Part shown: positions 3,153-4,546 of the stretch, piece after piece
How the letters are laid out: each line of letters opens with the position of its first letter
Position numbering within the stretch: position 1 is the stretch's first letter
Assembly: GCA_002050355.1 (NCBI GenBank)
Contig: MWYY01000115.1
Span: 1 to 64,000 of the forward strand
From: Acidobacteria bacterium 28-9
Lineage (GTDB): Bacteria > Acidobacteriota > Blastocatellia > Pyrinomonadales > Pyrinomonadaceae
DNA: 64,000 nt
Direction of reading: 5' to 3'
Notes under the pieces: generated by a model
Told to the model about the DNA's origin: nothing
Database searches by the model: none
The model's input: only the letters and a program-made list of their open reading frames with translations
Position numbers and translations under genes: made by a program

Positions 3153-3605
3153 TCAACTCGGCGCTTGATCGTCAGGAAAGGAATTTTCTTCGGTTTCGAC
3201 TATTACCAGCAGTTTTTCTTTATAAGTTTCGGGCAGCGACCGTACTTTTTTGTTTTTGTCGGTTACAACGTGGAGTGTTTCGCCTTCTGCCAGCAGCGTT
3301 TGATTTGACGCGCGGTAAATTTCGTAAATAAAACGCAATGAACGGCTTCGGATGTCGGCAACATTTGTGCGGATGGTTACCAAATCTTCATAATACGCGG
3401 GTGATTTATAACGGCAATAAACTTCGGCGACAACCATCAGAGCATTTTCCTGCTCCTCCATTTCGAGATAGGAAAAACCACGTGCGCGGCAAAACTCGCT
3501 TCTGCCGAGTTCAAACCAGATTAGATAGTTTGAATGATGGACAATGCCCATTTTATCGGTTTCGGCATATCGAACCCGGATTTCTGTTTCGTGCCAGCCA
3601 TTCAT
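3153..3605 (-). CDS. acyl-CoA thioesterase, hotdog fold (4HBT / YbgC-like)
   Basis: About 150 residues from the ATG at 3605. The N-terminus carries the YbgC/FadM signature: VRYAETDKMGIVHHSNYLIW, with the catalytic Asp in the ETD segment, and then ELGRSEF. This is a single hotdog domain of normal length that hydrolyses acyl-CoA thioesters in the cytoplasm. The frame stays open for 21 more codons upstream to 3668, but those codons are just a translation of a heptamer-repeat hairpin (3613-3680), so I take the internal ATG. The gene stands alone between a convergent/divergent pair. Confidence 0.85.
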   Translation of the reverse strand: MNGWHETEIRVRYAETDKMGIVHHSNYLIWFELGRSEFCRARGFSYLEMEEQENALMVVAEVYCRYKSPAYYEDLVTIRTNVADIRSRSLRFIYEIYRASNQTLLAEGETLHVVTDKNKKVRSLPETYKEKLLVIVETEENSFPDDQAPS

Positions 3606-3612
3606 AATAGTT

Positions 3613-3680
3613 GTGAGTGATGAATGGTGAATGATGAATGTAAAAAACAATAATTCACCATTCACCATTCATCACTCACC
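3613..3680. repeat. inverted pair of tandem heptamer arrays (gtgaatg / attcacc type)
   Basis: Left arm 3613-3640 is four 7-bp units (gtgagtg, atgaatg, gtgaatg, atgaatg). Right arm 3653-3680 is four units of the complementary type (attcacc, attcacc, attcatc, actcacc). The arms are near-perfect inverted repeats separated by 12 bp of A-rich spacer, so about 28 bp of stem could form. It lies just upstream of the thioesterase start on the minus strand. Same family as the arrays near 11.6, 12.5, 35.6, 41.0, 42.3, 50.6, 52.5 and 55.0 kb. Confidence 0.85.
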
Positions 3681-3685
3681 AATAA

Positions 3686-4482
3686 TTTTGGCTGGGAGAC
3701 AGGGATTTAGTATGTTAAAATAAAGAATATGAAAATGTTAATTTCATTAGAAGAACTCTCGACTTACAAGTCGCGCCATCCTGTTCCGCTACGATGTGAA
3801 AACTGTAATATCACATTTTATAAACCAAAAAATGATATTCTAACATCATTAAAAGGAAACTCGCAATTTGCGCTGAGATTTTGTTCACTCAAATGTAGTT
3901 ATGAAAAGCGAACGAAAGAAAATCACATTGAGATCGCTTGTGAAAATTGCAATAAATTGGTAATTAAACAAAAGAGTTGGTTAAGGAAAAATAAGTATAA
4001 TTTTTGCAGTAGAAGTTGTAGCGCAACTTATCAAAACACTCATTCGACTCTAGGAAACATAAGGAAAAGCAAGGCTGAAACTTATTTGTCAGAGTTAATT
4101 CGCCGTGATTTTGAGCATTTAGAAGTCAGGGGAAATGTTCGAGATATATTACCGTCAGGGCTTGAGTTAGACCTTTATCTTCCATTGTTAAATCTAGCAA
4201 TTGAACTAAACGGACCTTTGCATTTTTTTCCTATTCACGGACAATCGAAACTAGATTCTATTCGTGATAAGGATATAAAAAAGCAAGTGGAAGCACAGAC
4301 AATTGGATGCAATTTAATTGTGTTAGATATTTCTCACTTCAAGTATTTGAAAGAGACAAAAACCTTTCTTGATTATGAATATAAAGAAAGACTTAAACCT
4401 ATATTAGAGATGATTGGAAAATGAATCTTTATCCCAGCCAAAAAGTTTGCTCGGAATAAATAGAATCTGGGAGACAGGGATT
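3686..4482 (+). mobile_element. candidate tRNA-Gln-associated mini-element with 16-bp direct repeats
   Basis: The 16-bp sequence ctgggagacagggatt occurs at 3692-3707 and again at 4467-4482, where it is the 3' end (acceptor and T arm) of tRNA-Gln. Between the copies lies a single AT-rich gene for a zinc-finger nuclease (3729-4424). A 12-bp inverted repeat is also present: ttttggctggga at 3686-3697 and its complement at 4432-4443, just after the gene's stop. The unit from one direct repeat to the next is 775 bp. Duplication of a tRNA 3' end is the hallmark of site-specific integration, but no integrase is present, so a homing-type mechanism is inferred. Confidence 0.6.
3729..4424 (+). CDS. zinc-finger protein with Vsr/EDxHD-like (PD-(D/E)XK) endonuclease domain
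   Basis: 231 residues. Two Cys4 fingers are visible: C23/C26/C52/C56 and C71/C74/C93/C97 (CxxC...CxxxC each). From residue 113 a nuclease-like domain follows: KSKAETYLSELI, then LELDLYLPLLNLAIELNGP (E146, D148, E159, N161) and RDKDIKKQ near residue 195, the order seen in Vsr-like phage and intron homing endonucleases. Cytoplasmic, probably site-specific DNA cleavage. The gene is clearly more AT-rich than its neighbours, uses A/T-ending codons, and sits alone between direct repeats of the tRNA-Gln 3' end, which points to recent transfer. Start could be the ATG at 3729 or the one at 3735. The family assignment is from motif recognition, not a search. Confidence 0.65.
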   Translation: MKMLISLEELSTYKSRHPVPLRCENCNITFYKPKNDILTSLKGNSQFALRFCSLKCSYEKRTKENHIEIACENCNKLVIKQKSWLRKNKYNFCSRSCSATYQNTHSTLGNIRKSKAETYLSELIRRDFEHLEVRGNVRDILPSGLELDLYLPLLNLAIELNGPLHFFPIHGQSKLDSIRDKDIKKQVEAQTIGCNLIVLDISHFKYLKETKTFLDYEYKERLKPILEMIGK

Positions 4483-4537
4483 CGAACCCCGATAGGCAGA
4501 TCCAGAGACTGCAGTCCTACCATTAGACGATCTCCCA
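4467..4537 (-). tRNA. trnQ: tRNA-Gln (anticodon CUG)
   Basis: Read on the minus strand from 4537, the acceptor TGGGAGA pairs with TCTCCCA ending at 4468 with discriminator G. The D arm is GTCT/GGAC, the anticodon loop is CTCTGGA (anticodon CTG, U33 conserved), and the T arm is CGGGG-TTCGAAT-CCCTG. The 71-nt gene does not encode CCA. There is one T-T mismatch at the base of the anticodon loop stem. Its last 16 bp are duplicated at 3692-3707. A good promoter lies immediately upstream. Confidence 0.95.
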
Positions 4538-4546
4538 ATAGCTAAT

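Follow-up and report, generated by a model that had tools for sequence, protein, structure and literature searches.

A single-gene nuclease unit inserted at the 3′ end of a tRNA-Gln gene in an Acidobacteriota bacterium, and its mostly viral relatives

The Interrupted tRNA-Gln Locus

The window (the whole stretch of 64,000 nucleotides analyzed here, from contig MWYY01000115.1 of Acidobacteria bacterium 28-9) harbors a tRNA-Gln(CTG) gene on the minus strand (about 4466–4538 by the tRNA call; 4467–4537 in Rfam, 54.6 bits) whose 3′ end is present twice. The 16-bp repeat CTGGGAGACAGGGATT was located by repeat search at 3692–3707 (plus strand) and, together with the tRNA call, at 4467–4482 (minus strand); the two copies are identical, with a spacing of 775 bp, as a preliminary description made from the sequence had stated, and there is no third occurrence on either strand of the 64-kb window. 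The left copy is truncated, extending from the end of the tRNA as far as the T-loop, and is read as a remnant of the interrupted tRNA-Gln gene. The right copy completes the restored tRNA-Gln(CTG) at its 3′ end, and this tRNA gene lies intact behind the unit as that description had proposed. The inserted body (3708–4466, plus strand; 759 bp, or 775 bp including one repeat copy) is the part missing from congeners and has a GC content of 32% compared to 45% for the window. Its sole open reading frame of at least 60 aa in the ORF list is a nuclease gene of 231 aa (3729–4424, plus strand), in keeping with the one AT-rich gene noted earlier, and no integrase gene is present between the repeats. A profile search of the 117 contigs of the genome found a single copy of the nuclease gene.

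The gene is flanked by an inverted repeat found by repeat search, whose left arm (3686–3702, plus strand) combines left flank and tRNA end and whose right arm (4427–4443, minus strand) lies directly 3′ of the stop codon; the arms are 17 nt long and 88% complementary, and the 12-bp inverted repeat described before at the gene edges is their exact 12-nt core. An inverted repeat of this length was absent in the 10 viral relatives tested, where the corresponding places showed only 5–8 nt. A REP-like palindrome with 32-nt arms (3608–3684) adjoins the insertion; this sequence has 60 matches in the genome including the query, many places being counted on both strands, and it may extend the predicted start of the ORF at 3153–3668.

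Uninterrupted Sites in Congeners

Eight genomes of the same genus (completeness 71–95%) were compared, and the tRNA/smpB side of the locus was matched in six. Five of these (L012, L013, L014, L016, and L017) contain one uninterrupted tRNA-Gln 3′ end each, L012 differing from the window repeat in 1 of 16 bases, and in L015, the sixth, the tRNA-Gln sequence is different. The bases preceding the tRNA end match the left junction of the window in L012, L016, and L017 (GG; TTTTGG in L012), and therefore the gap is clean; they differ from it in L013 and L014, and a search of L013 gave no left-flank match. The nuclease had no match in any of the eight genomes. Measured against L012 and L016, a clean 775-bp unit was gained in the window together with the adjoining REP-like hairpin. 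Because the congener sites are uninterrupted, the arrangement stems from an insertion rather than from chance repetition. The clean 775-bp gap in related genomes, on which the preliminary description had staked its reading, is thus borne out: five congener loci are uninterrupted, and the gap is clean in the three that share the left-junction bases. This comparison shows the element inserted in the T-loop region of tRNA-Gln, preceded by a truncated copy of the tRNA 3′ end and followed by an intact tRNA.

A Finger-Bearing Nuclease with a Predicted Vsr-Like Fold

The protein comprises two four-cysteine, zinc-finger-like sets (C23, C26, C52, C56 and C71, C74, C93, C97) followed by a Vsr-like domain at about residues 114–205. 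Among 50 aligned proteins, E117, E146, D148, N161, D182, and K185 are invariant, H165 is nearly so, and the eight cysteines are invariant or nearly invariant. AlphaFold2 modeling with this 50-sequence alignment gave a mean pLDDT of 92.3. A Foldseek search with the model returned Vsr (1cw0 and 1vsr, both with probability 1.00) and I-Bth0305I (3r3p, probability 0.98) with E-values of 0.004–0.04; the top match was a Toxoplasma mitoribosomal protein, followed by Vsr and AbaSI, with the I-Bth0305I domain at rank 9. Since no Foldseek match reached an E-value of 0.001 or lower, the support for a Vsr/I-Bth0305I-like fold of the catalytic domain is moderate. The earlier reading of a two-zinc-finger protein with a Vsr-like domain, and the structural comparison it had called for, came out in its favor to this extent. 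Vsr and I-Bth0305I are EDxHD-type nucleases, the former acting in repair and the latter in intron homing; the window protein is predicted to be like both in its catalytic-domain fold and unlike them in its two cysteine-rich fingers, and a sequence search of the PDB up to an E-value of 10 gave no match. Matches were obtained to PHROG models for HNH and homing endonucleases (best 8.7e-10), and among the best matches the only Pfam family was the zinc finger zf-FCS, below its curated cut-off.

Scattered Occurrence in Bacteria

With a two-sequence profile, full-length-like matches covering most of the protein were found in 3 of 162 genomes of the class (the own genome, G041, and G448), and three further ones (G014, G206, and G497) gave weak and partial matches, making six in all; a single-sequence query matched 2 of 396 genomes of the phylum, the own genome and G041. 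The G448 genome belongs to the same family as the window genome, and its protein is also present in record JALHNX010000053.1. All three class copies are convergent at tRNA 3′ ends (Gln, Pro, and Leu): in G041, 10 bp lie between the gene end and the tRNA-Pro(GGG) 3′ end, and the G448 gene runs antisense into the 3′ end of a tRNA-Leu(CAA). No upstream partial tRNA copy was found in G041 or G448. The tRNA of the G041 site is present without the gene in a genome of the same family and another genus (L042), and the same holds for the G448 site in two genomes of its genus (L177 and L179). Conservation by vertical descent, named beforehand as an outcome that would speak against mobility, is not what this distribution of full-length matches (3 of 162, own genome included) indicates.

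Close relatives were also sought by a peptide-pattern search, which confirmed none in the genome or viral contig collections, and by a search with alignment A1, which gave one viral match restricted to residues 23–100. Against phages, tblastn gave no match at 1e-5 and, at E-values up to 1, 14 weak partial records; a viral family member used as query gave six partial records. Plasmids gave three weak partial records at E-values up to 1, and none with the viral member.

A Mostly Viral Family at tRNA 3′ Ends

IMG/VR was scanned with a DNA pattern encoding solely the protein motif NGxxH(F/Y)xPxxGxxKLxxIQ, which returned 107 stretches commonly adjoining tRNA 3′ ends. A slightly wider pattern returned six stretches from the cellular collection, namely five cyanobacterial records, four of which lie within tRNA arrays, and the G448 record. 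The cyanobacterial arrays (L169, L171, L173, and L174) hold 17–27 tRNAs per 8-kb stretch and one family nuclease gene each, on the strand opposite to the array.

After short and repeated ORFs had been dropped, 77 viral genes had any tRNA on their stretch; the nearest one was on the opposite strand and downstream in 53 (44 within 100 bp), opposite and upstream in 20, and on the same strand in four. A stricter rule applied to 84 distinct genes called a convergent tRNA 3′ end at most 140 bp from the stop codon in 45, left it uncalled in 34, and met the end of the sequence in five. When T-arms were scanned for directly, one faced the stop codon in 48 of 79 loci; the opposite strand had one in 2 of these 79, and random windows from the same loci in 35 of 395. 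On this comparison, about half of the members or more are linked to tRNA 3′ ends, and the unit of the window is one of a mostly viral family, part of which has the same layout at many tRNA genes. The family adjoins many tRNA types and is not restricted to tRNA-Gln, the target named in the preliminary description. A minority (L070, L073, L121, and L158) lies on the same strand as the neighboring downstream tRNA.

Members of the family also change tRNA type, as shown by comparison of related copies. On a nuclease tree of 45 of 83 proteins, those with a called convergent tRNA, the type of tRNA changes 33 times, compared to a mean of 33.5 after shuffling and a possible minimum of 16; good support was obtained for only 12 of the 42 inner branches. 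Three related copies in L105 lie at Cys, Thr, and Glu tRNAs, and L071 and L164, which come from one contig and are sisters on the tree (100/99), lie at different tRNAs and each show the repeat of their own target. Among unit pairs with at least 70% DNA identity over at least 450 bp, some, for example L114/L166 and L063/L084, lie at different tRNAs and share about 70% identity over nearly the whole unit.

An occupied and an empty version of one viral site were also found. In L154 and L155 the unit lies within a tRNA-Leu-like gene, and contig L185 has the same place empty, matching L154 by BLASTN over 1205 bp of left flank (98.3% identity) and 326 bp of right flank (93.3% identity). The L154 unit is 717 bp long, with 17 bp of the target used twice as a duplication, and the first 120 bp rightwards from the repeat are identical in L154 and L185. 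The three bases beside the repeat at the tRNA end are TGA in occupied L154 and TAG in empty L185, and therefore the very end of the tRNA either comes from the element or was altered. Left-flank queries thus recovered an empty site for L154; those from L164 and L086 returned occupied contigs only. The empty sites that the preliminary description had asked for exist both in congeners and in viral L185, and the presence/absence polymorphism at otherwise equal sites that characterizes homing elements is seen in both.

The Truncated tRNA Copy before the Gene

The 20 nt of the tRNA 3′ end were compared with the DNA around the gene start in the 45 loci with a called convergent tRNA. Identity was 19 or 20 of 20 in nine loci, 16 in one, and 14 or less in 35, with a maximum of 17 of 20 among 675 swapped controls. 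Clear copies were also found in L125 and L154, where the convergent tRNA is uncalled, so that 11 of the 84 distinct viral genes have a near-identical upstream tRNA copy that stops in the T-loop. The units of these 11 loci measure 696–815 bp, and in ten of them the stop point of the copy is (C or T)GAA; the copy stops earlier in the window (by four letters) and in L125 (by about three), before CGAA or its equivalent. A separate scoring gave 16 or more in 15 of 84 loci compared to 1 of 417 swapped controls, and four of those 15 (L156, L070, L113, and L121) were left out of the support because their copies are not of the T-loop kind. Repeats in homologous loci, anticipated in the preliminary description, are thus borne out up to the T-loop for the 11 viral genes and fail to appear in the two relatives from the phylum.

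In several weaker-scoring loci (L064, L080, L102, and L108) the left copy, judged by eye, is T-loop-like at its end and resembles another tRNA, which suggests a history of more than one simple insertion; such copies may be left over from a different allele or from a previous resident. The left end of the element in L063, L084, and L114 resembles TTCGAAAATnnATTTTCGA, a short palindrome starting with T-loop sequence.

An HDV-Like Structure at the Rebuilt tRNA End

A conserved stretch separates the stop codon from the tRNA in many viral units and overlaps the ORF in some. Read on the tRNA strand, it consists of P1, P2, a P3 hairpin, P1′, a short helix with the P3 loop, P4, CTAAG, and P2′, with P1 beginning at or beside the tRNA end. 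The helix order from P1 to P2′ and the CTAAG-like junction are those of HDV ribozymes, and the double pseudoknot P1-P2-P3-P1′ with a short P1.1 and with P1 at the tRNA 3′ end, as in theta/HDV-like ribozymes, was recognized in 20 viral loci. A reading of this stretch as a guide-RNA scaffold with the tRNA end as guide was dropped because the helices lie on the tRNA strand in HDV order with a CTAAG-like junction.

Covariation was assessed in 20 of 23 sequences (alignment A5; L072, L076, and L161 left out) over 19 pairs, excluding P4, which was seen by eye and differs in register between subtypes. Of all cells, 97.9% are paired, compared to at most 51.5% in slid-partner controls, and 17 of the 19 pairs show two-sided changes; one of five covariation measures, further pair types, was no higher than shuffling (288 of 500 shuffles as high). 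Some of the ribozyme loci are near-copies by appearance (L062, L097, L101, and L162; L084 and L124). The model built from the 20 sequences matches 27 of 96 viral loci, those 20 included, and has no match in the window, L010, L058, the empty site L185, or six cellular loci; Rfam at gathering scores found tRNA and one tmRNA only in the 12 loci searched. As shown by comparison, part of the family thus has a covarying HDV-like structure at the 3′ end of the rebuilt tRNA, and we infer from these sequences that it may act as a ribozyme in viral relatives. A second HDV-like match in L072 (9085–9164) lies next to a T-arm-like sequence; an intact nuclease ORF was not seen adjacent to it, and it is perhaps a remnant.

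Theta ribozymes, described as HDV-like, adjoining phage tRNAs, and self-cleaving in vitro (PMC10879173), have in common with these structures the HDV-like helix order at tRNA 3′ ends on viral contigs, likened here by their description. The structures reported here differ in lying inside a nuclease unit and partly overlapping its ORF in antisense; the words ‘endonuclease’, ‘homing’, and ‘transpos’ do not occur in the main text of PMC10879173.

Origin and Movement of the Unit

The unit is probably a minimal mobile element consisting of one nuclease gene. Of the self-spreading nuclease unit proposed at the outset, the clean 775-bp gain stands and the restriction to tRNA-Gln falls, with nuclease-driven insertion as the presumed route. 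The nuclease would cut the conserved T-arm GGATTCGAACC of a tRNA gene, and repair of the break would copy the element in, with duplication of the interrupted tRNA 3′ end (16–21 bp); the second end could be made from the target (by a long staggered cut or by repair) or be brought by the donor. As the 3′ end is duplicated, the tRNA gene would survive and the cost to the host would be small. Several findings count against this explanation: 35 of 45 loci score 14 or less of 20, the two phylum relatives have no copy, some left copies resemble a different tRNA, the tRNA end in L154 departs from the empty site (TGA for TAG), 34 of 84 genes are without a called convergent tRNA, the nearest tRNA is upstream in 20 of 77, the Foldseek E-values all exceed 0.001 with a mitoribosomal protein on top, one covariation measure is no higher than shuffling, and the intact tRNA left behind retains a T-arm that could be cut again. 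A possible precedent for T-arm preference is SegB, whose motif RAWTSGAAC, present at 23 of the 83 cut sites that were mapped (PMC13096335), fits the T-arm consensus in a comparison made here; SegB as reported in the same source also cut motif-free substrates, which counts against.

A remnant of a larger integrative element, in which a tyrosine integrase since lost or acting in trans used the tRNA-Gln 3′ end, the 16-bp repeats represent attL and attR, and the nuclease remains as cargo, would agree with tRNA 3′ ends being classic attachment sites and with the 22 phage-integrase family matches of the genome, some of them broken. We consider it improbable, as the units of 11 viral relatives measure only 696–815 bp and have a repeat that stops in the T-loop, the L154 unit (717 bp) fits little besides a 219-aa ORF and the ribozyme, and tRNA type changes on the tree as often as in shuffled data. 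Somewhat less unlikely is a free-standing homing endonuclease that converts only equal tRNA alleles with flank co-conversion in the manner of SegB, supplying a tRNA 3′ end of its own; the nuclease-driven core is common to this alternative and the preferred explanation, and therefore the odds of the two overlap. SegB adjoins tRNA genes and makes its cuts inside them (PMC13096335), mobile ORFs of fungal mitochondria carry a gene end of foreign origin (PMC3630166), and some left copies are unlike the rebuilt tRNA, as they should be if the right copy had come from elsewhere, but tRNA type is kept on the tree no better than in shuffled data, related copies on one contig lie at different tRNAs (L071 and L164 each with the repeat of their own target), and 9 of 45 repeats are 19–20 of 20 identical. 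Least plausible, and very much so, is a nuclease serving tRNA biology or phage warfare, with its tRNA-side position selected for that role and not for spreading: the 107 viral stretches compared to six cellular ones under the slightly wider pattern, four of these six in tRNA arrays, would suit it, but the truncated copy with its stop in the T-loop, the viral pair of empty and occupied sites, and a single-gene insertion in a bacterial chromosome are left unaccounted for.

Relation to Known Systems and Implications

The mobile nuclease unit belongs to a known kind, that of selfish nuclease genes carrying or duplicating part of their target. SegB of T4/T6 is similar in adjoining phage tRNA genes and cutting inside them and different in its GIY-YIG class; the portion of PMC13096335 used here makes no mention of a truncated tRNA copy or a ribozyme. 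The fungal mitochondrial mobile ORFs likewise pair a nuclease ORF inside a gene with a duplicated, restoring gene end, but they occupy protein-coding genes, encode LAGLIDADG or GIY-YIG enzymes, and bring an end that is clearly foreign according to the sections of PMC3630166 consulted, whereas the present units lie in tRNA genes with two ends of 19–20 of 20 identity in 9 of 45 loci. HNH endonuclease genes in phage and mycobacterial tRNA arrays are also nuclease genes among tRNAs (PMC6409571; PMC12803027), proposed to spread tRNA genes (PMC6409571); the passages drawn on report their presence and not insertion in a tRNA or a restored 3′ end. Integrative elements that target tRNAs share the 3′-end target and its restoration by a repeat, unlike the present unit in that it is without an integrase. 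In the literature searched, mainly open-access, partly covered, and with bioRxiv outside it, no description of the combination of nuclease unit, duplicated tRNA end, and HDV-like ribozyme was found.

The broader reading, which we hold to be slightly favored over its negation, is a widespread and undescribed class of tRNA-gene parasites in which a finger-bearing, Vsr-like nuclease recognizes the T-arm, jumps to any tRNA type, and duplicates the 3′ end, often with a ribozyme finishing the tRNA in viruses; the T-arm is nearly universal, and therefore such an element could jump between any tRNA types. The nuclease may recognize the best conserved stretch of tRNA genes. If the broader reading is true, at least some theta ribozymes would be maturation devices of selfish elements and not phage inventions for tRNA supply. 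Besides introns and inteins, it would add another way for a selfish nuclease to reside inside an essential gene, by 3′-end duplication, in part of the family with a ribozyme, and it offers an origin for the HDV-like ribozymes adjoining phage tRNAs and would explain why nuclease genes occur in tRNA arrays.

A tmRNA was also noted on a viral contig stretch that carries a nuclease unit (L090:3194–3565).
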